DNA of 64,000 nt from positions 1 to 64,000 of IMG/VR virus record IMGVR_UViG_3300035137_000073. One strand, given 5' to 3'. Below the pieces are notes generated by a model. That model ran no database searches and was not told the DNA's origin. It worked only from the letters and a program-made list of their open reading frames with translations. Positions 1 to 54,631 of this stretch are shown here, piece by piece. Source of the DNA: a virus. The stretch's first letter is position 1, and every line of letters starts with the position of its first letter. The translations under genes were made by a program, and so were the position numbers.

Positions 1-815
1 TGACGTTCCGCGGCATCGTGGTATCGAGTCGAGCTATCAAGATGGCAGGCTCTAACAACCTGTACGAGGACATGTCGTTTGTTGGTGGCCCTGCGTGCGG
101 CAACACCATGAACCTCGTGACCGGCATCAACACCACGATTCGCCGTAGCGCGATCTACGGTCCCGGTGGCCGGTACCAGTTCATGAGTTACCAGCAGATA
201 GGTGTCACGCTTGAAGACGTGATTATCCGGACTGACGGTGGATGGGGAGAGGGCGGTACGAGTTGTACGGAATGGGAGCCTAACGCGCCTCTCAACGCCT
301 ACGATTCGAACGACTTCGCCTGCATCAACTGCATCACCTTCGATGGCATCGTTACCGCGACGGGCGAGACAGAGACGCTTGGCGGTCTCGGTGTGAATTG
401 CCACGGGTCGGCATCGGGCGCGCTGTTCGAAAACTCGCTGGTGGCCGGTATGGGCAGTTCGCTTGCGGCTGCACGGTTCTACGCAGACGGCAACGGATCG
501 TGCGCCAACGTGACGCTCCGCGATGTCTACGCTCGTGCCTACACTCGCAACGTCAATGGAACGACGACGGTTGAGCGCGGGACATTCACCGACCTTTGTG
601 CGGCATGGGACGGTTCTGTTCAATTAGTTGACAGTCGCGTAGGCGGGAATCAGGGTTGCTCCGGTTCGACTACCGGCGCCGGCGCTTCCATCACACTGAA
701 CGCTTCGTTTCTCGACAATCCCAGATGGCGACGCGAGATGTGCGACAGCGTAACGCGCGGCTGGTGCGGTACGGACCTAACGCTGTCGGAATATCTGAGA
801 GGATTGCTACCGTGA
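1..815 (+). CDS. Beta-helix tail fibre/spike-like protein, C-terminal part (5' truncated)
   Basis: The reading frame enters from the left edge, so the N-terminus is missing; about 270 residues remain. They alternate short hydrophobic strands with Gly/Asn/Asp turns (for example VTLRDVYARAY, ALFENSLVAG, NCITFDGIVTA). This is the rung pattern of right-handed parallel beta-helix proteins. Such folds are common in phage fibres and spikes that bind or cut surface polysaccharide. The following genes are also receptor-region structural genes, which supports a virion role. No catalytic residues can be assigned. The stop overlaps the next start (GTGA). Confidence 0.6.
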   Translation, partial: TFRGIVVSSRAIKMAGSNNLYEDMSFVGGPACGNTMNLVTGINTTIRRSAIYGPGGRYQFMSYQQIGVTLEDVIIRTDGGWGEGGTSCTEWEPNAPLNAYDSNDFACINCITFDGIVTATGETETLGGLGVNCHGSASGALFENSLVAGMGSSLAAARFYADGNGSCANVTLRDVYARAYTRNVNGTTTVERGTFTDLCAAWDGSVQLVDSRVGGNQGCSGSTTGAGASITLNASFLDNPRWRREMCDSVTRGWCGTDLTLSEYLRGLLP

Positions 816-1047: not shown

Positions 1048-1725
1048 ATGGCTGAAGTCTTTAGGGAAGAATTCACCGATACCAACGGCACAGCGCTTGA
1101 AGATCATGACGCTGGTTGGGATCATATTTCCGGTGCGCCGGACATAGAGATCCAAAGTAACAAGGGCGAAGCGACCAGCAACTCAGCAATCTCCTACTAT
1201 CGCTACACGACAGATCAGCCTTCAGACGCCGACGCCACGATGAAGGCCGATATCTACGGCACGTCAGGCAAGACGACACCAGGGATCGGCGTGCGTGTTG
1301 CCTCGAACGGATACGGCGTGTACGGCTATTTCGTCACCGACACTTGGTACCTGTTTCACAATGACGCTGGCGGGCCGTCCGTCGATGGGACGTACGCAGG
1401 AGATACCCCTAGCGGTGAGCCCACCGTTCAGATCATCCCCAATGGCAATGATTTTGCGCTTGAGATTGGTGGCGTAGAGCGCATTTCGGAAACAATCACT
1501 GGATACGCTGCGGCGGAATCTGGCGGGCTTTTGCTAGCCTATACCGACGCGTCAGGGACCACGATCGACAATGCCATCATGGAAGAAGATGGGGGTGGTG
1601 GTAGCGCAGTTCCCATCATCATGCAGATGATGCACCGTGTTAGGCATGCGTGGAAAAAGCGTCCGAGTGGAATCTTTGTACCTGATGTAGACCATATCCT
1701 GTCCCCAGCAAGGGTTGTAGTATGA
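1048..1725 (+). CDS. Putative tail protein with concanavalin/LamG-like domain
   Basis: 225 aa. The body (about residues 5-175) is a beta-rich, aromatic and Gly-rich sequence resembling concanavalin A-like lectin/glucanase (LamG-type) domains. It opens with a strand such as EEFTDTNGTALEDH and contains repeated strands such as GYGVYGYFVTDTWYLFHND. A Gly-rich hinge (EEDGGGGSAVP) precedes a basic C-terminus. In phages such domains sit on fibres and baseplates and bind glycans. The last codons overlap the next gene by 4 bases. Function is inferred from composition and context. Confidence 0.5.
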   Translation: MAEVFREEFTDTNGTALEDHDAGWDHISGAPDIEIQSNKGEATSNSAISYYRYTTDQPSDADATMKADIYGTSGKTTPGIGVRVASNGYGVYGYFVTDTWYLFHNDAGGPSVDGTYAGDTPSGEPTVQIIPNGNDFALEIGGVERISETITGYAAAESGGLLLAYTDASGTTIDNAIMEEDGGGGSAVPIIMQMMHRVRHAWKKRPSGIFVPDVDHILSPARVVV

Positions 1726-3854
1726 TTACACACCCGCCAGTCAAAAAAGGCACCACGGATAATACATGTACCGTGCGGGTGATTGATAGCTCGGATGGTA
1801 CACCAGAAACAGGTGTTGCCTACAACACTGCTGGTGTTGACCTGTGGTATCGTCGAGCACCCACTGGTGCGAAGACGTCATTGACTGAGGCATCTCAAAC
1901 GGTGACCGGGGCTCACACTGACGGTGGTTTCGTTCATGTGGGAGATGGGTATTGCCGTCTCGATCTACCTGATGCAGCGTGTGCTGCAGGTTCGTTCACG
2001 CATGTTGAAGTAGGCGGAACATTCACCGGCATGATTGTCATTGGGGCATTGATTCCTCTTGTTGACAACGACCTAGATGATGTCTATTCCGACACTACGG
2101 CCATTCACTCCCAGACAACGAAGATTGAAAGTGATACGGCGGTAATCGAGTCCGACACAACAGCGATCCACTCTGATACCACCGCAATCCATACGCAGAC
2201 AACGACCATTGCGTCGGACTTGGTTCTGGTCTATTCGGACACAGCGGCCATCCACACTCAGACGACCACCATCGCGTCCGATCTGCTCTTGGTTTACAGT
2301 GACACGACGAAGATCGAGAGTGACACAGCGGCGATCGAGACGGACACCGGGAACATCTACAGCGATACCACAATCATCGCTTCCGACCTGGTCTTGGTGT
2401 ATTCGGATACAGCTGCGATCCATGCTCAGACCACGACGATCGCATCGGATCTGCTACTCGTATACTCTGACACTGCCGCGATCCACGGTCAGACAACCAC
2501 GATAGCGTCGGACGTTCTCCAGATCTATTCCGATACGACCATCATCGCTTCCGATGTGGTGCTCATCTACTCCGACACCACCAAGATCGAAAGCGATACC
2601 GCTGCAATCGAAACTGACACGGGCAACATCTACTCGGATACCACGATCATTGCCTCGGACCTCGTGTTGATCTACAGCGACACGACGGCAATTGAGGCTG
2701 CCGGTGGCGGACTCAGCGCTGCCCAGGCTTCGCAACTCGCGCAAGTCAACTCTGATGTAAAACTCGTGTATTCGGACACGACAGCCATTCATTCCGATAC
2801 CACGGCGATCCATACCGACACGGCCAACATCTACAGTGACACGACCATAATCGCGTCGGACATCGTGTTGGTGTACTCAGATACCGCAGCCATTCATGGG
2901 CAAACGACAACCATCGCAAGCGACTTGGTCGTCGTTGCATCCGACTTGCTCCTTGTCTATTCGGATACCACCGCCATCCACTCGGACACAACGGCGGTGC
3001 ACACGCAAACGACGACGATTGCAAGCGACTTGGTGATTGTTGCCTCAGATCTCTTGCAGGTCTACAGCGACACAACGATTATCGCCTCAGATCTGGTACT
3101 GGTGTATTCGGATACCACGGCCATCGAAGCGGCTGGCGGTGGGCTGACGGTAGCACAAGCCTCGCAGTTGGCTCAGGTGAATTCGGATGTCAAACTAGTG
3201 TACTCCGATACGACGGCGATCCATTCGGACAGCACTGCGATTCACTCAGATACGACCGCCATTCACACCCAGACGACAACGATCGCTTCGGATGTCTTGT
3301 TGATCTACTCGGATACCACAATCATCGCATCAGATCTTGTCCTCGTCTATTCAGATACGACAGCGATTGAAGCCGGCGGCGGCGCACTCACCGTGGCCCA
3401 AGCGTCACAGCTTGCCCAGGTGAACTCCGACGTGAAACTGGTCTACAGCGACACCACGGCCATTCACAGTGATACGACCGCAATCCATACGGATACCGCG
3501 AATATCTATTCCGACACGACGGTGATAGCGTCGGACCTAGTCTTGGTCTACTCAGACACAACCGCCATCGAGGCTGGAGGCGGAAGTCTGACGGTGGCGC
3601 AGGCAAGTCAGCTTCTGCAGATCAACTCGGACGTGAAACTCATTTACTCAGATACGACCGTCATCGCATCTGACCTACTGCTCGTGTACAGCGATACCAC
3701 TGCTATTCACACACAGACGACGACAATCGCCTCTGACCTCGTTCAGATCTACTCTGACACGACGGCGCTTGTGACGGGCGTCAATGTCTCGCACGTCAAC
3801 AGCACGGAGATCCAGGGTACGGGTGTACTAGGAGACAAGTTCAGGCCGGTATGA
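1722..3854 (+). CDS. Heptad-repeat tail fibre protein (710 aa)
   Basis: An N-terminal beta-rich head (about residues 1-120) is followed by some 560 residues of nearly uninterrupted 7-residue units. Each unit reads roughly S/T-D/Q-T/L-x-x-I/V-x (SDTTAIH, TQTTTIA, SDLVLVY, SDTGNIY). Hydrophobic positions 3 and 6 predict a coiled-coil or fibrous stalk, probably trimeric. Four 18-residue Gly-containing inserts (such as AAGGGLSAAQASQLAQVN) break the register like hinges. The tail (HVNSTEIQGTGVLGDKFRP) resembles C-terminal caps of other environmental-phage repeat fibres. Repeats are far more diverged in DNA than in protein, so they are old and under selection. Confidence 0.7.
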   Translation: MITHPPVKKGTTDNTCTVRVIDSSDGTPETGVAYNTAGVDLWYRRAPTGAKTSLTEASQTVTGAHTDGGFVHVGDGYCRLDLPDAACAAGSFTHVEVGGTFTGMIVIGALIPLVDNDLDDVYSDTTAIHSQTTKIESDTAVIESDTTAIHSDTTAIHTQTTTIASDLVLVYSDTAAIHTQTTTIASDLLLVYSDTTKIESDTAAIETDTGNIYSDTTIIASDLVLVYSDTAAIHAQTTTIASDLLLVYSDTAAIHGQTTTIASDVLQIYSDTTIIASDVVLIYSDTTKIESDTAAIETDTGNIYSDTTIIASDLVLIYSDTTAIEAAGGGLSAAQASQLAQVNSDVKLVYSDTTAIHSDTTAIHTDTANIYSDTTIIASDIVLVYSDTAAIHGQTTTIASDLVVVASDLLLVYSDTTAIHSDTTAVHTQTTTIASDLVIVASDLLQVYSDTTIIASDLVLVYSDTTAIEAAGGGLTVAQASQLAQVNSDVKLVYSDTTAIHSDSTAIHSDTTAIHTQTTTIASDVLLIYSDTTIIASDLVLVYSDTTAIEAGGGALTVAQASQLAQVNSDVKLVYSDTTAIHSDTTAIHTDTANIYSDTTVIASDLVLVYSDTTAIEAGGGSLTVAQASQLLQINSDVKLIYSDTTVIASDLLLVYSDTTAIHTQTTTIASDLVQIYSDTTALVTGVNVSHVNSTEIQGTGVLGDKFRPV

Positions 3855-4819
3855 GGATAGCTCACGTCGCAATCGCGACTCCTGGCATGTGTGGGTTGTA
3901 CGAAACCACACGAGAACTCGCGGCGGCCGAGCGCGAGTTAGGGGTCGATGCGCGCATTGTGGATCCACAGCCAACACCGTTTCACCCGGGAGAGGAAGAC
4001 CGAGGGGTACCCATGGCTGACACGTCGTTCCTTGCGAAGGCAGACGTTGTTGCCGACCACAGCGGAATCGACAAGCTGGGGCTTGAGCGGCGCCGGCGCC
4101 CGATCGTGTACGTAAATCACGGCCGGCCGGCATCGTCGTTCGCGATGGAACGAAACGGTGGGCCTCCGGCACTCAGCTACTGGTACAAACGGGACAGAGA
4201 CAAGCGGTACAGAGTCGTCACGACGTTCTGGCCAGAGCACGTGCCTTACCTCGAGGGAATCTGGAGCAACACGCCGGTACGAGCTGTGTCGCCACCGACA
4301 GACCTCGAGCGGTGGTCGCCGGGCCCGACTCCCTACGATTTTGCTGGCCAGGGCGGCGACATCAATGTCGTGATAGCCGATATGTGGCGTGACGACGTGA
4401 CGCCGTTCCCGTGTATCGCGGCGTTCCTGAAGTTCGGAGAAGAGAATCCGACCGCACGGCTGCATCTGTACGGGTTGCCGGACGATCGGAGCGGCATCGA
4501 GGTGTTCCTGCAGGTACTGCGCGATCGCGGGCAGCTAGGCGTCGCTCAGGGGCATGCACGGGCATTGGAGGTCGTTTACAGGGCTGCCGATCTCGTCATC
4601 TCGCCACAGAGGATCTATACCCGGACACTTAGGGAGTCGATGGCGTGCGGAGCGCAGGTAGTGAGTGGGCGAGACGCCGATCCGGCCGATCTCTGTGCGT
4701 TCGTCGAGGCGATGGAAGACCGATTGTCACACCCCCGTGATACGCGATCTGAGGCCGAATCTCTGTTCGATCCAGTTCAGACAGCGACACAATTCTTGGA
4801 AGTAGTAAGCCTCAATTGA
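3851..4819 (+). CDS. Glycosyltransferase, GT4-like
   Basis: 322 aa. It begins with the N-terminal motif of GT-B glycosyltransferases (MRIAHVAIATPGMCGLYETT, then RELAAAERELGVDARIV). Near the C-terminus it has the donor-binding segment AADLVISPQ...RTLRESMACGAQVVSG, matching the E-x7-E region of family GT4 (normally EGFGLxxLEAMACGxPVV); the first Glu is not obvious. It would transfer a sugar from a nucleotide sugar. Start and stop overlap the fibre gene (ATGA), so it may decorate the fibre or alter host glycans. The target is inference. Confidence 0.7.
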   Translation: MRIAHVAIATPGMCGLYETTRELAAAERELGVDARIVDPQPTPFHPGEEDRGVPMADTSFLAKADVVADHSGIDKLGLERRRRPIVYVNHGRPASSFAMERNGGPPALSYWYKRDRDKRYRVVTTFWPEHVPYLEGIWSNTPVRAVSPPTDLERWSPGPTPYDFAGQGGDINVVIADMWRDDVTPFPCIAAFLKFGEENPTARLHLYGLPDDRSGIEVFLQVLRDRGQLGVAQGHARALEVVYRAADLVISPQRIYTRTLRESMACGAQVVSGRDADPADLCAFVEAMEDRLSHPRDTRSEAESLFDPVQTATQFLEVVSLN

Positions 4820-7113: not shown

Positions 7114-8781
7114 GTGGCGCAGATGATCGAGGAGTTGACGACCGATTTCAGTCGAGGGATGTACGACTCGGTATCGCCGGGTCGATATCCCAAGGCATCG
7201 GTGCGTCAGATCTTCAATGGTCGGGTACAGCCTGACGGTTCGGTTGAACGTCGGTGGGGCGGCATTCGGACGAGTGCCGCCGTTCCGAACGCCGGTACGG
7301 GTTATGGAGGTAGTCGGTTTACGACCGCTGCGGGTACCGATCAGATCATCGCCATATGCGGTGCGAAGGCGTACAAGAGCGAGGACTACGGGACGACATG
7401 GACAGAAATCGCTACGGGACTGCGTCAGGACTACTACACGTTCGCCGAGATGCGTGTCGGCGCCACGAACTACCTGTTCATGGCCAACGGCGACACGACA
7501 ATCAAGCGGTGGGATGGTACGACATGGGATACGGTACCGAACGCTCCATCGGGCGTGAAGTTCCTTGCTGCCAAGGATCGGCGACTCTGGGTATCGGGTC
7601 ATAGCGGTGTCTTGGTGCAGGCATGCAAGATCAACGATCCCGAAACGTGGTCGTCTCCTAACGGACTCACGGTACAGGTAGACCAGACGCCGACAGCGAT
7701 GGCTGTTGTTGCTTCGCATCTGTTGGTGTTCGATCGGCACTCGGCCTCATACATCGACGGCTACGGCGAACAGACGTTACTCGTTGCGGCGGGCGCGACG
7801 GGATGGTCGCGATCGGTTGGATGTACGGCGTTCCGAAGTGTCGTCGGTGTCGGCGACAACGGCCTCTGTTGGCTGAGTGAGCGCGGAGTCGAGTACTACT
7901 CGCCGGGCAGTGAGATCAAACTCGTCAGCAACAGCGTGCAGGAGTTCCTTGGCGAGATCGACTGGGAAGAGTTGTACGGCGCGCCGGGCCGCATCTCGGC
8001 CACCTACAACGAGACGAGCCAGAACTACCATATCGTGCTCTCGACCAATGGTACGCGAAACAACCGCAAGTTGATTTTGAACCTGTTCCAGCGAGATGTC
8101 GACTACCAGCGGAGCGGCAACATTGCCGCGGCTGCGATCGACCGGCCTCAGAGTACATCAGGTGGCGACCTGCTATTTGGTGGAGACTCAGACGGGTACC
8201 TGGCCGTGGTCGATGGTGGGTTCGAGCTTGAGTCCGATTCCAACGGATACATGCGGCTGGACACCGACGGTAGCGGCGGCGATCCGACGAGTGAAGATGC
8301 CGACGGGTATCTGGACACGGTAACCGACGACACGTTGCCAGCGACGCTCTTCGTTGCTCCCTACACCGACAAACCGAACGTCGTGTACTCGATTGGCTAC
8401 GACGGTTTTGTGCGCAGGCACTACAACGTCGACAGCGACGACATGTTGTCTGACGAGTCTGGCGGCGTCGAGGTCACGATGTCGATCAGGACGCGGCCCT
8501 ACGGACAGCGGTACGCCGATCAGACCAAGCGGGGCCGCACCATTCACGTATCGTCGATTCAGGAAGATACTGCGACTATCACGGTTCAGGGATACGGTCG
8601 CGGCACGGCAACGGCCTCACAAGATCTGACGATGACCGCTTTGGGTGTCGACCATGCCGACCGCCAGAAAGCGCGCATCAAGTTCGACGCAGACGCGCCA
8701 CAGATCGAACTCCGGACAAAAGACAAGGTCAAGATCACGATGATCGGGTTGTCGTTCGAGTTATTGAGGAAACGGCGATGA
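7114..8781 (+). CDS. Beta-propeller-like tail/stabilisation protein
   Basis: 555 aa from GTG, 3 bases after the previous stop. It opens with LTTDFSRGMYDSVSPGRYP then QIFNGRVQPDGSVERRWGG, the start typical of podovirus tail-completion/DNA-stabilisation proteins that bind below the portal. Repeated aromatic strand segments (TTWTEIATGL, TIKRWDGTTWDTV, RLWVSGHSGV, LLVFDRHSASYIDGYG) fit propeller blades. An Asp/Gly-rich, possibly calcium-binding stretch follows (SDSNGYMRLDTDGSGGDP). The C-terminal beta domain ends KVKITMIGLSFELLRKRR. It likely closes the head-tail channel. Family assignment is from overall pattern. Confidence 0.6.
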   Translation: MAQMIEELTTDFSRGMYDSVSPGRYPKASVRQIFNGRVQPDGSVERRWGGIRTSAAVPNAGTGYGGSRFTTAAGTDQIIAICGAKAYKSEDYGTTWTEIATGLRQDYYTFAEMRVGATNYLFMANGDTTIKRWDGTTWDTVPNAPSGVKFLAAKDRRLWVSGHSGVLVQACKINDPETWSSPNGLTVQVDQTPTAMAVVASHLLVFDRHSASYIDGYGEQTLLVAAGATGWSRSVGCTAFRSVVGVGDNGLCWLSERGVEYYSPGSEIKLVSNSVQEFLGEIDWEELYGAPGRISATYNETSQNYHIVLSTNGTRNNRKLILNLFQRDVDYQRSGNIAAAAIDRPQSTSGGDLLFGGDSDGYLAVVDGGFELESDSNGYMRLDTDGSGGDPTSEDADGYLDTVTDDTLPATLFVAPYTDKPNVVYSIGYDGFVRRHYNVDSDDMLSDESGGVEVTMSIRTRPYGQRYADQTKRGRTIHVSSIQEDTATITVQGYGRGTATASQDLTMTALGVDHADRQKARIKFDADAPQIELRTKDKVKITMIGLSFELLRKRR

Positions 8782-9278
8782 TCGAGTTACCGCCAGGCGC
8801 CAGCCCAGAGTTGCGCGAGATCATCAATGTCTTGCGCGAGGAGTTGCTGTGGCGTCGTGAGCCGACGTTGCTGGGATACCGGCACGACGGAACGACTCTG
8901 CATCTACGGTTCCGAGCAGCACTGTCCACTCCGTGGGTTCAGGTCCATGTCCAATCGACAGCGGCCGATGAAGCGGCGGCAGGCGAAATCGGAACGGTAT
9001 GGGCCGACAACACATGGGCGACCGACTCGTGGGCTGACGACACATGGGGCGATGTCAGCGAAGGCGGTTCAGAATACGATCCCGATAACTACCAGTCGAC
9101 TACGCTAGTTGATTGCCGTGAAGACCGAGTGCAAGACGTGACAGTGACGGATGTGCCGGAAGAGCGCGTTGTGGTCTATCTAATTCCGGTTCAGTACGAC
9201 GGCGCCGACACAAAAGTCATGTTCGATGGAGAGAGCGGAAGACCTGATAACATGGCCTTCCAAACGATGGGGCACTGA
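8778..9278 (+). CDS. Hypothetical structural protein (166 aa)
   Basis: The start overlaps the propeller gene stop (ATGA). A helical N-terminus (SPELREIINVLREELLWRRE) is followed by beta strands and a Trp/Asp repeat (WADNTWATDSWADDTWGD) unlike its neighbours. The C-terminus is beta-rich (ERVVVYLIPVQY). The position between a tail protein and the large repeat protein argues for a virion component. No family recognised. Confidence 0.6.
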   Translation: MIELPPGASPELREIINVLREELLWRREPTLLGYRHDGTTLHLRFRAALSTPWVQVHVQSTAADEAAAGEIGTVWADNTWATDSWADDTWGDVSEGGSEYDPDNYQSTTLVDCREDRVQDVTVTDVPEERVVVYLIPVQYDGADTKVMFDGESGRPDNMAFQTMGH

Positions 9279-9280
9279 TT

Positions 9281-12200
9281 ATGACAGCACCATATTTGAC
9301 AGACGACGAACTCCAGCAACAGGCCGAGGAGCAGGCGCAAGCGACACAGGCGCTTCAGACGCCAAGCGCTGCGCCCGGAATGCCCAGTGGGGTGCCTGGG
9401 GCTGAAGTTCCTGAAGCGACATCGCCGGGAGCCAGCGTTCCTCAGGCTCCGGGTGCCGTTCCGTCCGGTGCGGTAACGATGCCGCCACCGCCTCCACAAC
9501 CACCGACGCTGCCGGGTCTTTCGCAACAGGTGACACAACACGCGTCCGACTGGCTGAATCAGGGCAATCGGTACCTGTCGCCGTTGGTGAGCGCTACACG
9601 CGAAGCCGGAGATCTCAGAAGAACAGAACAAGAGGCCGCGGCCGCACGCGGAATTGAAGAATGGGCAGCGAGCCGTGGGCTGGTAGGCAGTTCGTATGAA
9701 GGCGAGCAGATGGTCGATCTTCAGGAATCGCTTGCCCGTGCCCGTGCCGACGAAGAACTCGGGTTGTATCAGATGCTGGCAGACGCCGAATCACTGGACC
9801 GACAGGCTGCCGGCGAATTCGGGCTCAACACGCTTACCACTCAGGAGAATATCAACTTCCGTGCCCAGGAACTTCTGAACGAAGGTCGGGCGTTGGATTT
9901 GCAAGAGGCGCGGGATCTTGCGGCCGTCGAACTCGCACGCGAGGAGATGGCGCAGAACGAAAGCCAGTTCGGGCAGACGCTTTCTTTCGAAGAAAGGCAG
10001 GCCGAAGCGGAACGGGCGCTCGAGCGTGAACGACTGGCTCAGCAGGGCGAGCAATTCACGGAATCGTTGTCCGAGCAGCGTGCTGGGCGGTTACAGCAAT
10101 ACGGTCTATCTCAGCAGCAACTGGATCTTGAGGCGCAACGGCTTCAACAGCAGGCCCAAACAGAGGGTCGTACTCTCGATCTTCAGCAGGCGCGTGATGA
10201 AGCAGAGATCTCCATACGAGCCGAGCAGATGCAAATGGAGGCGATGCTCCAGGGCCGTTCCATGGATATTGAGGAGGCCCGGAACCTTGCGCAGTTGGAA
10301 CTTGGACAGGCACAGCTTGAGGAACAGCGTCTCACCCGGATCCAGAGTTTCGGGTTGTCGCAACAGGAACTGGACCTCCAAGCGCAGCAAATCCAACAGC
10401 AGGCGGCTCTTGAAGGCCGGCGCCTCGACCTCACCGAGGCTCGGGACGAAGCCGAACTTACGTTGCGGGCAGAGCAGCTACAACAGGAAGCGATGTTGCA
10501 GGGTAGGTCGCTTGATATCGAAGAGGCACGGAATCTTGCCACTCAGGAGATCGCCCAAGCTCAGCTTGCCGAACAACGCGCTCAACGTCTTCAAGACTAC
10601 GGCGTTACGCAGCAGCAATACGACCTGCAGGTGCAGCGACTTCAGCAAGAGGCCAGTCTTTCCGGTCGGCAGATGGACATCCAAGAGGCGCAGTTTACCG
10701 CCGAGGTTGGATTCCGGATGCAGCAGTTGCAGCAAGAGGCCGAACTGGAAGGCAGATCCCTCGACATTCAGGAGGCGAGAAACCAGGCCGAGCAGGAAAT
10801 CGCCTACGCCGGACTCAGGCAGTCAGAGTCGCAATTCATGCAGCAACTCGGGATTTCGCAACAGGAAGTTGATCTACGTGCGCAACAGCTGCAGCAGCAG
10901 TACCAGTTGGAGGGTCGCAGCCTAGACCTGCAGGAAGCCAGGGACCAGGTCGTCCAACAGGTGCAACTTGGCCAACTTGGTATCGCGCAACAGGAAGTCG
11001 ATTTGAGGGCCGAGGAACTTCAGCAAGAGGCACGTCTCCAGGGCCGGGCCCTCGACCTACAGGAAGCCCGCGATCAGGCGTCTCACGAGCTTCAGGCGCA
11101 GCAGCTGGGCATCTCACAGCAAGAGGTCGACCTTCGCGCGCAGGAATTGGTTCAGCAGGCAGCCCTACAGGGCCGTTCCCTAGACCTCGAGCAGGCTCGC
11201 GACGACGCGACTCGCGAGTTGGCGACACAGCGGCTGGCGATGGAGGAGTCGCAGTTCAACCAGATGATGTCCGAACAGCAGGCGGCCCGACTGCAGAACT
11301 ACGACATCTCGACGCAGCAGCTGAATCAGGAAGCCCGGAGACTTCAGCAGGAAGCTGAACTACAGAATCGGCAGATGGACATTCAGGAGGCTCAGGGCGA
11401 GGCCGAGATCAACCTTCGCGGTCAGCAAATCCAGCAGGAATACGAACTCCAAGGTCGGGCGCTCGACATTGAGCAGGCCAACAACATCGCTCGGAACGAA
11501 GTTGCTTATGCGCAACTTGAAGAGCAGACAGCTGGACGGCTGCAGCAGTACGGAATCTCGCAGCAGGAATTGTCTCTTGAGCAACAGCGACTGACCCAGC
11601 AGGCTGAACTCGAAGGCCGGTCGCTGGACATCACCGAAGCTCTTGGACAGGCCGAAATCAACCTGCGTAGCGAGCAACTTCAACAGGAGGCGGCGCTGGA
11701 AGGTCGGTCGTTGGATCTGCAGGAAAGCCGGATCTTGGCCGAGCAGGAAATTGCGTACGCTCGACTGGACGAGGACCGGGCTGCGAGGTTACAGCAGTTC
11801 GATCTGACTCAACAGCAACTCGACGTGGAAGTTCAACGGTTGCAACAGGAAGCGCAGTTGGAAGGCCGGAGTTTGGATATCAGAGAAGCCGAATCTCAGG
11901 CCGAGATCAATCTGCGGACACAACAACTCCAGCAGGAAGCCCAGCTTCAGGGACGTGCACTCGACATTGAAGAGGCTCGAAACCAGGCGACAGCCGAGAT
12001 CCAGCGTCAGCAGCTTGGAATCTCGCAGCAAGAAGTCGATCTACGGGCACAGCAGATACAGCAACAGGCCGCGCTCGAAGGCCGTTCGATGGACATCCAG
12101 GAAGCGCAGTTTGAGGCCACACAGGTCCTTGCGCGCGAAGAGATGGAATTCCGGGAGCGGCTACAGGAATCGGAGATTGCACAGCGGGAAAGCGAGTTCG

Positions 12201-13534
12201 CCCGTAGTCTTGGACTCAGCGAACGCGAGTTTTCAGCACAGCAAGACCAGTTTGCGGCGCAGTTGGCCGAAGAGACGGCTGCCAGATTCCAAGAAAACGA
12301 GCAGTTTTATGCCGCTCTGCAGTCCGACGAAGCCCAATACGCTCTTGACTTCGGACTGCGCGATCGTGCTCTCGATCTTCAGCTTCAGGGCATGGAGATG
12401 GATGAAGCGTTTCGGCAAGCCAGTCTCGATCAGGAGAGAGATCTGCAGGAACGGTCGCTTGACTTGCAGGAAATGGGGATGTCGTCGGACGACTCGTACC
12501 GATACGCCGTATTGGCTCAGGATTCGCAGTTCCAGCAGATGCAGATCGATCTACAGAACCGCGGGCTCGATATCGAGGAGTCGTACCGAGAAGCCGAGCA
12601 GTTCGTTCAGTTGCGTCAGCTGGACATCTCGCAGCAAGAGGTCAATCTCCGTGCCGATCAGCTGACACAAGAAGCTGAACTGGCCGGCCGAGAGCTCGAT
12701 TTGATGGAAGCCCGAGATCAGGCCCAGATTGATCTTGCCGAGGACCAGATGGAACATCAGTGGGAACTGGCCAACCTCGAGTTGGCTCAGCGCGAAAGCG
12801 AATTCGCCCGGGCCTACAATCTCGACGAACGTCAGTATGCCGAACAGCAACGTCAGTTCTCCGTTCAGTACACCGAACAGGTCCAAAGCCGACTGCAACA
12901 GGACGCGCAGTTCCAGGCAACGCTGGCACAGGATGACGCGCAGTTCGCCCTTGAAGTTGGGTTGCGCGAACGGGCGCTCGGCCTTCAGGAAACCGGCATG
13001 CTCATGGACGACGCATACCGTCAGGCCGCTCTCGATCAGGAGCGAGCCATTCAGGAAGGTGCGCAGGAGCTTCAGCGCCAAGGCATCTACATGGAAGATG
13101 CCTATCGATACGCGGTATTGGAGCAAGACGCCGAATTCCAGCGTCGTGCGCAGGATCTGCAGGAACAGGGCATGAACATGGAGGATGCGTATCGGCAAGC
13201 TGATCTCGATTTGCGAAACCGTGCGCTTGCCGAAGAGCACTACCAGTTTGCGCAGGAGATGCAGTTCCGCGAAGACCAAGCGCTGGACGATCAGGCTCGG
13301 TTCGACCAGATATACGAGTTGTACCAGGAAATATGGGGTGACGAGGATGGCGACGACGGCGATACAACGACAACTATCGTGAACGTATACGGCGGTGGCA
13401 CAACAGGCACAGGCGATACAACCGGCAATCCAGATGAGTATCCAAACATCAACCCGGACAACGGCGGCACGTGGCATTGGGATCCTGACATAGGTAACTG
13501 GGTTGACGACGAAGGAAATGAGTACGAGGAATAA
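9281..13534 (+). CDS. Giant Gln/Glu-rich helical repeat protein (1417 aa)
   Basis: Residues ~1-85 are Pro/Ala-rich with a PPPPPQPP stretch. From ~100 to ~1330 the chain is built of helical repeats around the core L-(E/Q)-G-R-x-(L/M)-D-(I/L)-x-E-A, linked by QQ(E/Q)xDLxAQxLQQ and ISQQEVDLRA. In the middle (residues ~525-655) two successive units are each exactly 43 residues. Later units change to ALDLQ/GMxMDDAYR types. The tail is acidic, then Thr/Gly-rich (VNVYGGGTTGTGDTTGNP), and ends with WHWDPDIGNWVDDEGNEYEE. It lies just upstream of putative ejection proteins. A long rod-like virion or ejected protein is most likely. A tape-measure role is an alternative, but hydrophobic segments are absent. 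Confidence 0.65.
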   Translation: MTAPYLTDDELQQQAEEQAQATQALQTPSAAPGMPSGVPGAEVPEATSPGASVPQAPGAVPSGAVTMPPPPPQPPTLPGLSQQVTQHASDWLNQGNRYLSPLVSATREAGDLRRTEQEAAAARGIEEWAASRGLVGSSYEGEQMVDLQESLARARADEELGLYQMLADAESLDRQAAGEFGLNTLTTQENINFRAQELLNEGRALDLQEARDLAAVELAREEMAQNESQFGQTLSFEERQAEAERALERERLAQQGEQFTESLSEQRAGRLQQYGLSQQQLDLEAQRLQQQAQTEGRTLDLQQARDEAEISIRAEQMQMEAMLQGRSMDIEEARNLAQLELGQAQLEEQRLTRIQSFGLSQQELDLQAQQIQQQAALEGRRLDLTEARDEAELTLRAEQLQQEAMLQGRSLDIEEARNLATQEIAQAQLAEQRAQRLQDYGVTQQQYDLQVQRLQQEASLSGRQMDIQEAQFTAEVGFRMQQLQQEAELEGRSLDIQEARNQAEQEIAYAGLRQSESQFMQQLGISQQEVDLRAQQLQQQYQLEGRSLDLQEARDQVVQQVQLGQLGIAQQEVDLRAEELQQEARLQGRALDLQEARDQASHELQAQQLGISQQEVDLRAQELVQQAALQGRSLDLEQARDDATRELATQRLAMEESQFNQMMSEQQAARLQNYDISTQQLNQEARRLQQEAELQNRQMDIQEAQGEAEINLRGQQIQQEYELQGRALDIEQANNIARNEVAYAQLEEQTAGRLQQYGISQQELSLEQQRLTQQAELEGRSLDITEALGQAEINLRSEQLQQEAALEGRSLDLQESRILAEQEIAYARLDEDRAARLQQFDLTQQQLDVEVQRLQQEAQLEGRSLDIREAESQAEINLRTQQLQQEAQLQGRALDIEEARNQATAEIQRQQLGISQQEVDLRAQQIQQQAALEGRSMDIQEAQFEATQVLAREEMEFRERLQESEIAQRESEFARSLGLSEREFSAQQDQFAAQLAEETAARFQENEQFYAALQSDEAQYALDFGLRDRALDLQLQGMEMDEAFRQASLDQERDLQERSLDLQEMGMSSDDSYRYAVLAQDSQFQQMQIDLQNRGLDIEESYREAEQFVQLRQLDISQQEVNLRADQLTQEAELAGRELDLMEARDQAQIDLAEDQMEHQWELANLELAQRESEFARAYNLDERQYAEQQRQFSVQYTEQVQSRLQQDAQFQATLAQDDAQFALEVGLRERALGLQETGMLMDDAYRQAALDQERAIQEGAQELQRQGIYMEDAYRYAVLEQDAEFQRRAQDLQEQGMNMEDAYRQADLDLRNRALAEEHYQFAQEMQFREDQALDDQARFDQIYELYQEIWGDEDGDDGDTTTTIVNVYGGGTTGTGDTTGNPDEYPNINPDNGGTWHWDPDIGNWVDDEGNEYEE

Positions 13535-13546
13535 CAGGAGCGAACC

Positions 13547-14101
13547 ATGGGAATCTTCGGATCGATAAAGAACGCCATCACCGGACCGTTCCGGGCGATC
13601 AACGAGCTTGCTCACGGTAGGCCCCGGGGAGCGATCGGCGCGCTTGGTGACACGGTGAAACCTGCCGGTGTTATTCTCGGTGCTACGGGAGTGGGATTGC
13701 CAGTTGCTGCCGGGGTCAGCGCCCTGGGTGGGGCGATGCAGAAGGCTGACGATGTCGGGAATCGCGGATTCGAAGACATCGTGGGTGGCGCCGCCGAAGG
13801 TGGGATGCTTGGTGCCGGGTCGGCGTTGGCTCCCATCGCTGTCGACAAACTTGGCGGGCTTAGTGCAATCGCCAACTACGCTAAGTCGAATCCGCAGACG
13901 GTCTTACAGGGATTGGGTACGGCTTCTAATATGTATGGATCGTACGAACAGGGACGGGCGTACGACGATCGTTTGGCGGCCGATCAGCTGTATCGTGACC
14001 AACAGGCGAGGTTGGATGAGGCCGAGCGACAGCGTCGGTTCGACCTCAGCAAACTCAACACACTTGTGAGCATGATGAGTGCAACAAGACCGAGGTATTG
14101 A
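13547..14101 (+). CDS. Gly/Ala-rich putative internal virion protein
   Basis: 184 aa with ribosome site AGGAGCG. Residues 40-125 are rich in Gly, Ala and Val (VILGATGVGLPVAAGVSALG; GGAAEGGMLGAGSALAPIAV), giving weakly hydrophobic, membrane-active-looking segments. The C-terminal ~50 residues are charged and helical (DEAERQRRFDLSKLNTLV). This layout and its place before a 1344-residue protein recall small ejection proteins of T7-like phages that insert into the host envelope. No sequence family is assigned. Confidence 0.5.
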   Translation: MGIFGSIKNAITGPFRAINELAHGRPRGAIGALGDTVKPAGVILGATGVGLPVAAGVSALGGAMQKADDVGNRGFEDIVGGAAEGGMLGAGSALAPIAVDKLGGLSAIANYAKSNPQTVLQGLGTASNMYGSYEQGRAYDDRLAADQLYRDQQARLDEAERQRRFDLSKLNTLVSMMSATRPRY

Positions 14102-14103
14102 CG

Positions 14104-15066
14104 ATGTCCTATGCGTTAGGAGGGGCGTTTCAGGCGCTTGGATCGGGGCTTAGCGAGATCGGTCGTATCGCAGCTGCGAGGAGACGCGAAGAAGAACAGC
14201 GGCGACTCCGTGAGGCGGCGCAGTACGATGTTGACATAATGCAGCCTGGTGTTGTGCCACTCAGAGATATCGCGAACGCGTCGGCAACGGTACCTGAGGA
14301 CGCGAGAACGCTATCATCGGGCGTCATGGTCAGTCCTGGCTTGGCCGAGGAACAGGCGATCGCCGCTGAAAGAGATGCGCATCGACGCCAGATGAACTAC
14401 GATCTCGAGCGGTCGAGATTGGCTGAACAGGAGAGGGCGTACGGTCCCGACGCACGTGGCGAACGGGCAACCGCTGCCTTTGTGGTCGAGCAGAATCCGG
14501 AATTGTTTGCGGGTGCGCCGCGCGATGTCATGCAGAGTCCCAAAGCCATCATGAACGTTGCTCGATACGCAGCGGGACAGCAGCAGCCTGCGCAAGGCGA
14601 ACGGAATGCGCGACTCAACCTGAACCAAGCTCTGGAATTCGTGAAAGACAAATACGCTACTAGGGATGAGTTCGCTCCGAACAGGATCACGGGTCACTCG
14701 GTTCCGCATGAGCAGATGTATCAGATGGCAAGAGAAATGGCGAACACGGGCGAGTTCAGAGAGATATTGCCTGTTGCGCCACCGATGATGGCAAGGCCGC
14801 CAGCGGGTTCGGAACAGACAGGTGCACGTGCCGTGGTACCGACAGCTTCTCCGATGAACGCCGAGGTTGATTCTTCTGCCAGGATGCCAACTGCCGCAAC
14901 CGAGGATGACGTGTGGAGTCGTTTGGGTGTTCAGCGATCCGAACTGGAAAGAGACATAGCCGAAGCAAAAGAAGAAGGGTTGAGCGACGATCAAATCCTA
15001 GCGGGTCTGCGTGGTGCACCTAGAGCCGTACTTGTCGAAGCACGACGGATACTTGGTGGAAGATAA
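14104..15066 (+). CDS. Putative internal virion protein (320 aa)
   Basis: I chose ATG at 14104; a TTG at 14098 overlapping the previous stop is an alternative. The N-terminus is Gly/Ala-rich (SYALGGAFQALGSGLSEIG), followed by a strongly charged helix (AAARRREEEQRRLREAAQYD). The middle is helical and Gln/Arg-rich; the C-terminus is a small acidic helical unit (EEGLSDDQILAGLRGAPRAV). The gene sits in a run of three overlapping genes consistent with ejection proteins. Its stop overlaps the next start (TAATG). No enzymatic motif seen. Confidence 0.55.
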   Translation: MSYALGGAFQALGSGLSEIGRIAAARRREEEQRRLREAAQYDVDIMQPGVVPLRDIANASATVPEDARTLSSGVMVSPGLAEEQAIAAERDAHRRQMNYDLERSRLAEQERAYGPDARGERATAAFVVEQNPELFAGAPRDVMQSPKAIMNVARYAAGQQQPAQGERNARLNLNQALEFVKDKYATRDEFAPNRITGHSVPHEQMYQMAREMANTGEFREILPVAPPMMARPPAGSEQTGARAVVPTASPMNAEVDSSARMPTAATEDDVWSRLGVQRSELERDIAEAKEEGLSDDQILAGLRGAPRAVLVEARRILGGR

Positions 15067-18000
15067 TGCCCGACCAAGATCGCTTCGCGAAGTACCGGGA
15101 AAATGATCGGTTCGCCAAGTACCGAGAGCAGGATGAGCCCGGCTTACTGCGTCGGGTTGCCGACGTTGGTTCTACGGTGTTTCAGGCTGTCGCAGATCCC
15201 ATTGGTTTCACGGCTCGCCAAGTTATCCCGAAGGCCCCTGATATTCTACGGCAGACGGGTCGGGGGCTTGCCGAGTCGGGGTACGCGACTGCAATCGGTA
15301 CCACCCAACTCGTTGGTGCTGATGAATTTGCCGAAAACTTGCGGGAAGGTCGTGAAAGCGCACGCGAATTCTACGGTGCACCCGAAAGCGGCGTCGGTGC
15401 CGTTGCCGGAACCGCAGCACGCATGGCTGGCGATGTTGCTCAGTTCATGGCACCTGGGTCAGCCATTGCACGATTCGCGAAGCCAGCCACTACACTCGGA
15501 AAGGTGGGCTTAGAGGTTGCGACAGGAGCTCCGCTGGATGCAGCCATAGCCGCGTCAGGACGTGAGGAGTCCCTTGCAGGTATGGCAGCCGACATCACTG
15601 GATCCGAGACGTTGGGGCAAATAGCAGAAAGTCCATTTGGAAGAGCGGCTGTGGATGTTGCCGTTGGGGCTGGAATAGGCGGTAGCTTGGCTGCCGCGGG
15701 TGCTCGCGGTGGTCGTTCGGCGACACGCACCGCAGACGACATTGCATCCACACGACGAGTCATTGACGAGCCTACTGGAGTGGGGCGATTCGAAAAATAC
15801 ACTGAGCCATCAACGGATGTAGTGGTGCGTGCAGAGCCAGCGCAGGAACCGTCCGTCGTGCAAGTTGCAACCGACGCCGTGGAAGTTGGAACCCAACCTA
15901 AGGCACTAGATCGGCTTCAGTCGTTACATCGCGAAATGCGTCAGGTTGAGCGAGAAGGCGAACAGGTCAGCGATGAGTTGTTTGATGAGTTTGAAGTGGC
16001 TTTCGAAGAACGTCTCGACCGAATCCAGAATGAGATGGACAAAGTCAAGAAGGATGTATATGAGCAGGATGGCCCCGAGGCCCACGCTAGTCTTCTTGAT
16101 GCGTTTGATGAGTGGATAGAACACAAGGAAGGGAGTGTTCAGGGGATTGGGGGCGATCAAAGCGTGTGGGATACCGATACACCCGAGTTCCCAACGACAG
16201 TCGATGAGACAAGAGAGGCGTTGGCCGATCCCAATATTGTCATCGATGAAACCGGACCATCTGACGCCCTAGAATCGCGCGTACCGGCTTTGGAGTCTGC
16301 GTCCACCCAAGACCCCATCGAAGGCATCGAACGTCAGGTACGCGCTGAGGAGCGTCCAGCGTTAGGTACCGAAACGGCACAGCCGGAAGCTGTAGACGAT
16401 GTCCAGGGCCGCAGCGGTTTCGACGAGTACTTGGCGGACATGACAGAGCGCGGCGACGCAGTGGGTATGGCTGGGGGCGGTGAGGCTGGATATGTAAACC
16501 CAACAGCAGTCGGCAAGGGAATCAAAGCCTTCATTCGTCGGAACTTCACAAGCGCCGGTGATTTGCCGAAGAAGGTATTCGATCGCATGATCCGCCGTGA
16601 CGGTGGTGTGAATTCTCTGCAGCGCGAAGTTGCTTACACTCTCCGCGATTTCAGGCGCACTGCGCGCGAGGTATACGGCACAGCCAATTTGTCGTCAGAA
16701 CAACTTGAGCAGATAGACACCGCGCTGAAGGGGGAGTCGTCGGTTGTTCCAGAAGAGATGCGATCGGTCGTTGCCAAGATGCGCAACGATATCGACGACA
16801 TGAGTCGGCGACTCATTGATGCTGGGGCTATCGATTCGGAGCTTGTACCAGCAGTAACCGACAATCTCGGCTTGTATGCGACTCGTTCCTACCAGGTGTT
16901 CGATGATCCCAAATGGGCCGAGAAGGTGCTGTCAAAGCATCCTGATGTGGCCCGTAAGGTCTGGCACTTGTTGGAAAACGAGAACCCAAACCTGCCGCGC
17001 GAAGAAATCGAAGGGCTTTTCAAGGCGCTCCTCGAGCGTGGTGAGGACAGCCCGCTGGCGTTGATCCAACAAGGAAAGCTGGGCAGCAAGGACCTCTCCA
17101 TCGTCACTCGAAGAAAAGATATCGACCCGGCAATTCGTGCGCTGTGGGGCGAATACCACGACCCTCGTGTCAACTACGCACGATCGATGACGAAGATGGC
17201 GCACCTTTTGGAAAACCACAAGTTTCTCCAAGACGTGCGGTCGGAAGGGCTCGGGCAGTTCTTCTTTGAAACGCCGATTTCCCGCGAAGGGGTCGACTAC
17301 GTCCAGCAGTTTGCCGCGGAAGGGTCGAAGACGTTGGAGCCTTTGAATGGGCTCTATACCACCAGAGAGATCGCTGACGCGTTTGAAAGGGTAGTCGAAT
17401 CATCGCCAGCCCCCGACTGGCTGAGGGCATACTTTGGAGTCAATTCGGCAGTCAAGTTTTCGAAGACGATCGGATCGTTGATGACGCATGTCCGCAACAC
17501 AGTCGGCAACGTAGGGTTTGCCGTTGCCAACGGACACTGGCGTGTGGACAAAATGGGTGAGGCCGCAAAGACAGTTTGGGGCGATTTGTGGGACGTTGGC
17601 TTGAAAGACAAAGCGAAGTGGCGCGAGATCTACCGCGAGTTGGTGGATCTTGGAGTTGTGCACGAAAGCGCGCGTGCCGGCGAATTGCGAGATGCTATTG
17701 CGGATGCCATCAGTGATTCTGATACCCTTGTGGGTGGGCTCCCGCAGCGTGTCGCGAAAAAGACTCTGCGGGGCGCCCAAAACGTCTATCGTGCCGAAGA
17801 TGACGTGTGGAAGGTGTATGCCTATCACAATGAGTACAGCCGGTACAAGAAACAGCTACCGGACATGCCCGAAGACGAACTGAAACGGCATGTAGCAGCG
17901 ATAGTGCGCGACACCTATCCGACATACTCATTGGTACCATATGGCGTGAAGATGGCACGGCGGTTCCCTGGTGTTGGAACGTTTGTGTCCTTCCCGGCCG

Positions 18001-19100
18001 AAGTGGTTCGAACATTAGGGAATTCACTTGCGCTAACGGCCAAGGAATTGAAGGATCCAGCGCTGCGTAGTATAGGCGCTCAGCGGCTTGCGGGCTTGGC
18101 AACCGCCGCAACGTCGGTATGGGGTGCAACGGTGGCATCCCGCCACATGAACGGCATAGACCGCGACACGGACCAGGGCGTTCGGCGCTTCTTACCTAGC
18201 TGGTCGCAGAACAGCTCTCTGTTCTATCTGAACCGAAACGAAGACGGCAGGGCGCGGTTTGTTGATCTGAGTTACACCGATCCGTATTCGTACATACGCA
18301 AGCCTTTGATGGCGTTCATGCGTGGCGAAGATTGGAACGAAGCCGTTTTGCAGGCCGGTGCCGAAGCGGCAGAACCTTTTCTTTCCGAAGAGATTCTAGC
18401 CGGCAAAGTCTTCGACATTGTACGGAATCGGAAAAAGGATGGAGGCGAGGTTTTCAACCCAGAGGCCTCTTGGAACGAGCGAGCGCAGGCTATTGGGCTT
18501 CACATTCTAGACGCATTGGAGCCAGGTACAATCTCGAGCATGCAACGCATTTGGCGCGGAATTCGAGGTACAACTACAGTGCACGGCCGCAGCTATGATC
18601 CCGTACTTGAGGCCAAAGCGGTGTTGACTGGATTTCGCATTCAGGAGCTGGACGTTCCGCAAGCCTTGTCGTGGAACGCTCGAAAGGCGCAGGGACGTAT
18701 GGGGGATGCGCAGGCGATGTTGAGCAGCGTTGCAGGACGTGGAGGTTCTGTGGACGACGCTGAACTGGAAAACGCCTACCGTCAAAGCGAGACTTCAAGG
18801 CAGGAGATTTTTGAGGGATTGGTCCAGGATGTGGCGGCGGCGCGGAATCTTGGTATGAACAACAGGGATATTCACGATGTGCTGCGTAGCGTCGGGATGT
18901 CGAACGACCAAGCTACCGAGGTCATGAACGGTAGTTACCTGCCGTACCGTCCAGGCGATCAATTTCTCGAACGGAAGGCGAGGGCGGTAGCTAGTACCGC
19001 GAATCCTGAGGAACGGCGCGGACTCATACGTGATTACCGTCTTAGGCGCCAGCGTGTACAACAAATGGCTGATAGCGCCAGGGCCACGCGGAGGCGATAG
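15066..19100 (+). CDS. Very large putative ejection/internal virion protein (1344 aa)
   Basis: Opens with a tandem octapeptide (DRFAKYREN, DRFAKYREQ) seen at the start of large phage polyvalent proteins. An N-terminal Gly/Ala region (to ~230), a charged low-complexity linker (~240-470) and a long helical C-terminal part (~480-1340) follow. The C-terminal part has segments such as SKTIGSLMTHVRNTVGNVGF, RRFPGVGTFVSFPAEVVRTL and SYTDPYSYIRKPLMAFMRGE. The FP-rich block resembles large-polyvalent-protein domains (LPD38-like). By size and place it is the counterpart of the largest T7-type core protein, ejected into the host envelope. No lytic transglycosylase motif was recognised. Confidence 0.55.
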   Translation: MPDQDRFAKYRENDRFAKYREQDEPGLLRRVADVGSTVFQAVADPIGFTARQVIPKAPDILRQTGRGLAESGYATAIGTTQLVGADEFAENLREGRESAREFYGAPESGVGAVAGTAARMAGDVAQFMAPGSAIARFAKPATTLGKVGLEVATGAPLDAAIAASGREESLAGMAADITGSETLGQIAESPFGRAAVDVAVGAGIGGSLAAAGARGGRSATRTADDIASTRRVIDEPTGVGRFEKYTEPSTDVVVRAEPAQEPSVVQVATDAVEVGTQPKALDRLQSLHREMRQVEREGEQVSDELFDEFEVAFEERLDRIQNEMDKVKKDVYEQDGPEAHASLLDAFDEWIEHKEGSVQGIGGDQSVWDTDTPEFPTTVDETREALADPNIVIDETGPSDALESRVPALESASTQDPIEGIERQVRAEERPALGTETAQPEAVDDVQGRSGFDEYLADMTERGDAVGMAGGGEAGYVNPTAVGKGIKAFIRRNFTSAGDLPKKVFDRMIRRDGGVNSLQREVAYTLRDFRRTAREVYGTANLSSEQLEQIDTALKGESSVVPEEMRSVVAKMRNDIDDMSRRLIDAGAIDSELVPAVTDNLGLYATRSYQVFDDPKWAEKVLSKHPDVARKVWHLLENENPNLPREEIEGLFKALLERGEDSPLALIQQGKLGSKDLSIVTRRKDIDPAIRALWGEYHDPRVNYARSMTKMAHLLENHKFLQDVRSEGLGQFFFETPISREGVDYVQQFAAEGSKTLEPLNGLYTTREIADAFERVVESSPAPDWLRAYFGVNSAVKFSKTIGSLMTHVRNTVGNVGFAVANGHWRVDKMGEAAKTVWGDLWDVGLKDKAKWREIYRELVDLGVVHESARAGELRDAIADAISDSDTLVGGLPQRVAKKTLRGAQNVYRAEDDVWKVYAYHNEYSRYKKQLPDMPEDELKRHVAAIVRDTYPTYSLVPYGVKMARRFPGVGTFVSFPAEVVRTLGNSLALTAKELKDPALRSIGAQRLAGLATAATSVWGATVASRHMNGIDRDTDQGVRRFLPSWSQNSSLFYLNRNEDGRARFVDLSYTDPYSYIRKPLMAFMRGEDWNEAVLQAGAEAAEPFLSEEILAGKVFDIVRNRKKDGGEVFNPEASWNERAQAIGLHILDALEPGTISSMQRIWRGIRGTTTVHGRSYDPVLEAKAVLTGFRIQELDVPQALSWNARKAQGRMGDAQAMLSSVAGRGGSVDDAELENAYRQSETSRQEIFEGLVQDVAAARNLGMNNRDIHDVLRSVGMSNDQATEVMNGSYLPYRPGDQFLERKARAVASTANPEERRGLIRDYRLRRQRVQQMADSARATRRR

Positions 19101-51697: not shown

Positions 51698-51978
51698 ACC
51701 GTCGCTCGTTTCTGAAGTGGTCAACGGCGACAGCGGCGGCTCTGTGGTTGCCTTCAAGCGTGCGACCTCCGAAAGAGTGGGAGGTTGTTTATACCAACCC
51801 CTACGAAGCCTTGGCCGAGCGTATTTTCGCCCAGCTGTGGGAAACGTGGAAGGCGCTCGAGTCAGGTTGCGCGATTCACGGTACCGAGTCGGGGGTTGTC
51901 AGTCGTAAGGTGCCGAACGAGGCGCTTGCTGTTTCCATAGAGCGCACCCTCCAAGTTTCCGTGCCGGTGGTAGGATGA
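51694..51978 (+). CDS. Protein with canonical Tat leader (94 aa)
   Basis: The leader MNRRSFLKWSTATAAALWLP contains RRSFLK, an almost perfect Tat motif (S/T-R-R-x-F-L-K), followed by a moderate hydrophobic core. The mature ~70 residues are helical (PYEALAERIFAQLWETWKAL) and beta (LAVSIERTLQVSVPVV). Its stop overlaps the large-terminase start (ATGA). Export would need host Tat. Confidence 0.6.
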   Translation: MNRRSFLKWSTATAAALWLPSSVRPPKEWEVVYTNPYEALAERIFAQLWETWKALESGCAIHGTESGVVSRKVPNEALAVSIERTLQVSVPVVG

Positions 51979-54296: not shown

Positions 54297-54631
54297 CTCG
54301 TTGGCAGAGGTTCTACAAAGCGATCGGTGGATTGGGGCCTGATGATCCTCACGAATCATCGAGGCAGGCACTTCGGCTGTCGACGCCTGTCCTGCGTGAA
54401 TTCCACGGACCAACGGAGATCGCACGATTCTTGATGTGGTTGGGTTTCTTGGCATACGATCCGGGCATTCCCGACTATCGAGCGGGGTTTTTCTACTGCA
54501 TGAAATGGCAGTGGAGATTTTGGAAGGGTCCGTACCACGATTACATAGTCGCCGGGGCACCTATAGGAAGTCTTGATAGGAGCAAAGCAAAGTGGTTGCG
54601 GGTCCCAGCGCCCTGGACAGATCGCTATTGA
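54293..54631 (+). CDS. Hypothetical protein (112 aa)
   Basis: ATGA overlap with the previous gene. Aromatic and basic (LREFHGPTEIARFLMWLGFL; FFYCMKWQWRFWKGPYHDY). No clear TM. It lies between packaging genes and a sulfotransferase. No family recognised. Confidence 0.55.
   Translation: MTRWQRFYKAIGGLGPDDPHESSRQALRLSTPVLREFHGPTEIARFLMWLGFLAYDPGIPDYRAGFFYCMKWQWRFWKGPYHDYIVAGAPIGSLDRSKAKWLRVPAPWTDRY

Follow-up and report, generated by a model that had tools for sequence, protein, structure and literature searches.

What part does a protein of 1417 residues, built largely of helical repeats, play in a virus that places it between its tail-hub genes and a large virion protein? The question is raised by the gene at 9281..13534 (+ strand, like the rest of its gene block) of the window, as we call the whole stretch analysed here, namely positions 1-64000 of the 67,917 bp record IMGVR_UViG_3300035137_000073. 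This open reading frame (ORF) is uninterrupted, with an ATG start that lies 2 nt beyond the preceding gene's stop. Its product is Gln/Glu-rich, just as a preliminary description made from the sequence alone had it (Q 17.9%, E 12.8% and A 12.3%, in a composition dominated by Q, E, A, L and R). We consider it probable that this is an internal virion (ejection) protein of a short-tailed phage, and that its repeat tract takes part in the trans-envelope DNA conduit. The ejection machinery is favoured because of the gene order, a remote homology between the conserved headpiece of the protein and a "DNA ejection protein" family, a gene block free of cysteine, and the presence of members in isolated short-tailed phages. 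The protein belongs to a previously unnamed phage family, in which a fixed front end is followed by a repeat tract of anything from nothing to more than 1200 residues, and which probably belongs with the known podoviral ejection-type proteins.

A conserved headpiece and a tract of variable length

Relatives of the repeat protein were reached solely by means of a profile of its 83-residue unit, which gave 24 viral loci. Whole-protein searches found no match in Pfam, in the PDB, among phages (tblastn) or with single-sequence patterns in IMG/VR, and a single weak one in PHROGs (phrog_35597, E 0.0011); at the sensitivity used, none of 84,980 prokaryote genomes yielded a prophage copy. With a hidden Markov model (HMM) of the headpiece the family comes to 51 distinct members, 39 of them complete and ranging from 194 to 1417 amino acids (aa). 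All share this front end of about 100 residues with its turn RGLx[AG]SS, and alignment A4 has four invariant positions (E41, R46, G47 and S51). In the window protein the headpiece occupies residues 87-185 (9539..9835), a helical hairpin, turning at RGLVGSS (residues 132-138), that is supported by the alignment, the HMM and structure models. It is preceded by a Pro/Ala/Gly-rich leader (residues 1-90; 9281..9550) that is predicted to be disordered, with 18 Pro in 90 residues and low predicted local confidence (pLDDT) in the model of an orthologue. Neither this headpiece, which lies around residue 132, nor the total lack of Cys and Lys in the protein had been recognised in the preliminary description.

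After the headpiece comes a helical tract of 0 to 1230 residues, the upper limit being that of the window protein, the longest complete member found, and the next longest being 974. Such a comparison of repeat number across related phages had been proposed in the preliminary description. Of the two closest orthologues, L097 has only 665 aa (on a contig of 67,951 bp, where genes of 184, 394 and 1374 aa follow), and L108 has 592 aa (contig of 72,339 bp, followed by genes of 219, 310 and 1906 aa). Two members (L161:854-1438 and L164:8674-9264; 194-196 aa) consist of the headpiece without a repeat tract, with a Gly-rich gene upstream and a large gene downstream, and are natural minimal versions of the protein.

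Gene company and the absence of cysteine

The gene order in the window (in aa, 555-166-1417-184-322-1344) is matched in L097 and L108. The 555-aa protein (7114..8781) is a tail-hub, or nozzle-position, protein homologous to HMO-2011 gp44: its profile A3 matches gp44 with E 1.9e-20 and the counterparts in phiM6 and CHOED with E 1.5e-10 and 1.9e-6, while a similarity to T7 gp12, which was tested, proved undetectable. It is followed by a 166-aa ORF (8778..9278) whose place is kept in L097, L108, L088 and L091. Downstream of the repeat protein lie a 184-aa Gly-rich protein (13547..14101), a 322-aa protein (14098..15066) and a 1344-aa protein (15066..19100). The first of these has one transmembrane-like segment (19-residue Kyte-Doolittle mean, KD19, of 1.85 at residue 42), aligns in part with its L108 and L097 counterparts and is the proposed membrane member of the ejection set. 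The last matches phrog_22602, "virion structural protein", with E 6.7e-47, and its homologues in the Cellulophaga phages phi13:2 and phi19:3 are annotated as virion structural proteins. The repeat protein is thus encoded between tail-hub genes and a large ejection gene, as podoviral ejection proteins are, and a tail-hub homologue lies upstream on the same contig in 43 of the 51 family members.

A long helical repeat protein among tail genes might also be the tape measure of an unrecognised long-tailed phage. However, the protein has no hydrophobic segments of the tape-measure kind, as had been correctly noted, nor anything resembling a transmembrane segment (top KD19 of 0.44), and close orthologues of less than half its length occupy the same gene context. 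Moreover, PHROG scans of the main structural genes recognised no tape-measure or tail-tube gene or family (a clear tape-measure gene of matching length in relatives had been named beforehand as one finding that would contradict the preliminary description), and the relatives of HMO-2011 type are short-tailed (PMC9038755). We therefore find the tape-measure explanation scarcely credible.

Cysteine is absent from four consecutive proteins (1417, 184, 322 and 1344 aa; 9281-19100), or 3267 residues in all. Elsewhere in this phage the tail-hub has 4 cysteines, the portal 7, the capsid 3 and the terminase 8, and at the rate of its other virion genes (0.71%) 23 would be expected in the block (Poisson P about 9e-11, for a feature noticed post hoc). 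The 51 relatives likewise have no Cys in 33,631 residues and the large ejection family has 6 in 164,558, as against 0.98% in the tail-hub family. The proven ejection proteins gp15 and gp16 of T7 have none in 2065 aa, and T7 gp14 has one. Nevertheless, HMO-2011 gp43 and CHOED 09, both annotated as tail fibres, also lack cysteine; its absence is therefore not exclusive to ejected proteins and is supportive of ejection, being consistent with it rather than proof. Perhaps cysteine is avoided in proteins that pass partly unfolded through a narrow channel and refold in the oxidising periplasm, and its exclusion may mark ejected podoviral proteins in general. Lysine, too, is lacking in the window protein and in its 665-aa orthologue (L097:9020-11017), the other listed genes of the phage averaging 3.8%.

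Repeats, two-faced helices and their predicted fold

The repetitive tract spans about 1150 residues (190-1345), somewhat fewer than the 1200 originally estimated, though the repeats themselves are real: the identity autocorrelation peaks at a lag of 83 residues with 0.286, against a shuffle maximum of 0.154, followed in order by 166, 29, 54 and 43. The main period is therefore 83 residues (29+54), with related spacings of 166, 29, 54, 43, 18 and 11. At least 16 units built around [LE]-x-[GN]-R-x-[LM]-D-[IL] fall within residues 323-1134. The two successive 43-residue units reported near the middle do exist (543-585 and 586-628), but they are a minority form within a ladder of 83-residue units, with variants of 43 and 65, that covers residues 274-940 (10100..12100). 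Beyond it come two near-copies of a block of about 190 residues with DAYRxA-type repeats (residues 939-1130, 12096..12670, and 1141-1333, 12701..13279; local alignment score 433). The 83-residue units of the main ladder are 48-70% identical in aa and only 50-62% identical in DNA, which rules out recent slippage as their origin; judged from these identities the units are therefore old, and have been maintained by selection on the protein rather than being recent copies. The protein ends, as the preliminary description had it, in an acidic Gly/Thr linker and a Trp-rich motif (WHWD...NWVDDEG; residues 1346-1417, 13316..13531), with a net charge of -20 and four Trp. This end is conserved in L108, whose model has small beta elements in the motif region, but not across the family.

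With Leu-type residues plus Ala scored as hydrophobic, the repeat tract has a dominant period of 2.246 residues (power 79.9, against 9.7 in shuffles), a value that aliases with 1.803 and hence corresponds to the second harmonic of a 3.606-residue helical turn. It follows that hydrophobic side chains lie alternately on two opposing faces of the helix. Alanine alone gives a spectral peak at 3.608, and a period of 2.24 recurs in most family members. A simple heptad or hendecad rod fails as a sole description, since spectra of leucine alone have their peaks at 5.95 and 2.6 instead of 3.5 or 3.67. Nearly all of the 40 strongest repeat lags are whole helical turns, with R 0.93 against a random 95% limit of 0.26. 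Successive predicted helices also keep a common two-faced phase across the predicted loops between them (R 0.88; null 99% 0.56).

Two AlphaFold2 models were made, both of monomers: one of residues 80-640 from a 10-row alignment and one of the orthologue L108. In both, the headpiece is a helix-turn-helix. For each 83-residue unit of the ladder (pLDDT 75-90) the prediction gives three helices, 17, 23 and 27 residues long, and the breaks between them fall at G-R-x-L-D and at Y-G-[IL]-S, sites of conserved Gly and Ser/Asp capping residues. The models and the hydrophobic periodicity together support a predominantly alpha-helical protein, as podoviral ejection proteins are. The long rod of the preliminary description finds no support in these models, and a folded helical array seems more likely than an extended state. 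The spacing of the repeats in whole helical turns nevertheless means that an extended state could still form: the phase coherence may reflect either ancestry from 18- and 11-residue units or just such a second state. Natural and designed alpha-solenoids are comparable in their three-helix repeat with capping motifs, and designed helical repeat proteins are among the weak PDB matches; however, none of these matches is significant, and the helices of the window protein differ in sharing one two-faced phase through the predicted loops.

Could the repeats instead project outward as an external whisker or fibre, forming a long rod whose distal tip would be the Trp-rich C-terminus? The long tract, the low-complexity Gly/Thr tail with its Trp motif and the whole-turn spacings would all suit such a structure, as would the cysteine-free fibres of relatives. 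On the other hand, the gene lies inside the ejection block, away from the fibre genes, the headpiece matches a DNA ejection family, no adhesin or Pfam domain is recognised, and the C-terminus shows no conservation among family members at large. A whisker, one of three options originally offered, is thus quite improbable.

Remote kinship with ejection proteins and a proposed role

The remote homology concerns the headpiece. Among 53 protein clusters from the loci compared, its profile rose above the background with none but its own family and one short cluster (31.5); all others reached at most 19.4 and column-shuffled controls 15.6. That cluster contains members of PHROG 4287, "DNA ejection protein", short proteins (about 250-420 aa) from loci like that of Pelagibacter phage HTVC027P. 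They too lie upstream of the same large virion protein and have a headpiece-like helical hairpin with specific profile-profile similarity, but they lack a long repeat tract and have a Gly/Gln-rich C-terminus. A parallel set with 11-residue repeats is found among hypothetical proteins of HMO-2011-type phages: HMO-2011 gp25 (706 aa), Vibrio phage CHOED gp13 (460), HTVC103P gp59 (695), Pseudoalteromonas phage Slicky01 WGH49919 (620) and Sinorhizobium phage phiM6 gp25 (578), together with metagenomic proteins of up to 1552 aa. These occupy a comparable slot in short-tailed phages and have an RGLxxSS headpiece (score 31.2 with ours, against 15.1 when shuffled), a long two-faced helical tract and almost no cysteine. 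They differ in their repeats, which have 3.667 residues per turn in place of the 18/29/83 of the window protein, and the sequence similarity is only remote. The 1552-aa representative (L061:878-5536), a relative in kind in the same slot, has unbroken 11-residue repeats, whose lag coherence over 850 residues is 1.00 at 3.667 residues per turn.

The ejection proteins gp14, gp15 and gp16 of T7 offer a parallel. They leave the particle first and build a trans-envelope channel, in which the arched gp15 straightens into a tube after ejection (PMC8954989). The order tail protein, small, mid, large is the same, the proteins are mainly helical, and gp15 and gp16 lack cysteine; they have, however, no comparable repeat tract. 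Homologues of gp15 type have mostly been matched by size and synteny, and reported sizes vary by less than 30% for gp14, up to 138% for gp15 and up to 120% for gp16 (PMC8954989), smaller ranges than the 7-fold one of the present family. Among other podoviral ejectosome proteins, DEV gp72 and gp73 are likewise helical and adjoin a giant ejected protein, and gp72 makes a tube when expressed alone (PMC10925440). There is no Foldseek match to the solved structures at E<=0.001, and the published text consulted describes no repeat array.

If, as we favour, the repeat protein is ejected, several copies would be packaged near the portal alongside the 184-, 322- and 1344-aa partners and would leave through it, together with these partners, ahead of the DNA. 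On refolding in the envelope, the two-faced helices would pack side by side to form part of the wall of the DNA conduit or an extension of it, with the headpiece anchoring the protein to the tail or to its partners. The 184-aa protein might then be the membrane element, and the 1344-aa protein the large, gp16-like member. The number of repeats would set the amount of wall or the reach that each phage brings, and this could explain the length variation among relatives. A bolder version, which we regard as speculative and on balance rather doubtful, makes the tract an expandable wall behind a fixed headpiece: its three-helix units would be folded in the capsid and open in the envelope into an extended two-faced sheet or tube, so that repeat number would set conduit length (an ejectosome tape measure), with the ejected set marked by its lack of cysteine.

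Several results weigh against ejection. The link between the headpiece and PHROG 4287 is remote (hhalign probability 38-74%), and neither the window protein nor 11 relatives gave a direct HMM match to that family. No sequence relation to T7 gp14, gp15 or gp16 was detectable (hhalign probability <=0.3% for both headpiece and full family). In only 6 of the 51 members is a recognised homologue of the large protein found downstream, its place being taken in the others by another large gene. Both structure models are of monomers and of moderate confidence (predicted template-modelling scores, pTM, of 0.26 and 0.43), and Foldseek searches of viral and PDB libraries matched no known fold at E<=0.001. 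Finally, we found virion proteomics for no family member, which would also fit a helper that assists the ejection proteins as a chaperone or scaffold while the particle is being assembled, and is missing from it when finished. The highly acidic, soluble-looking helical repeat, free of Lys and Cys, could belong to such a helper. Nevertheless, we think this very unlikely, considering the remote link to a DNA ejection family and a family-wide exclusion of cysteine that one would hardly expect of a protein confined to the cytoplasm.

The strongest rival is an internal core or scaffold, with the protein staying in the capsid around the portal and organising the other ejection proteins or the DNA end, outside the conduit. 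Its position in the ejection block fits this, as does its all-helical, acidic character with no membrane segment, and T7-like ejection proteins do stack as an internal core before ejection (PMC8954989). However, a net charge of -161 disfavours DNA wound on the repeats, and thereby the core spool of the preliminary description, and the exclusion of cysteine is common to partners that are thought to be ejected. We therefore judge a permanent core unlikely and prefer the ejected conduit protein.

As for the remainder of the genome, the first bases of the record reappear about 144 bp from its end, positions 1-144 and the last 144 bp being near-identical, with a slightly different translated sequence; in view of this overlap, a complete, circularly mapped genome is probable. 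Its structural region begins with the terminase (51975-53744; phrog_2) and continues through a 746-aa gene in portal position, without a family match, to the major capsid protein (60645-61961; phrog_14242), the fibre-like genes, which lie across the record ends, and the ejection block. One fibre or spike gene is split by these ends (L007:6993-7916 joined to window 1-815), with proline-rich "PPDTVWIP" repeats preceding the domain that continues at the window start. At 1722-3854 is a 710-aa protein of short Ser/Asp/Thr repeats (IHTQTTTIASDLLLVYSDTTAI...), probably a repetitive fibre, which matches tail fibre and minor head proteins weakly in PHROGs. A glycosyltransferase-like gene (3851-4819; weak Pfam Glyco_trans_1_4 match, E 0.006) also stands within the structural region, and shortly after the terminase gene 54592-55191 encodes a protein weakly matching the sulfotransferase-type phage family phrog_3347 (E 0.004).

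Few systems have so far shown in what way short-tailed phages bridge envelopes of differing depth. In the present family one end is conserved and the repeat tract ranges from 0 to about 1230 residues, so that it can be tested directly whether channel length is set by repeat number. At the same time, hypothetical proteins of the abundant marine HMO-2011-type phages gain a proposed role, and the exclusion of cysteine, a simple mark, may help to spot ejected proteins that have no sequence similarity to those of T7.

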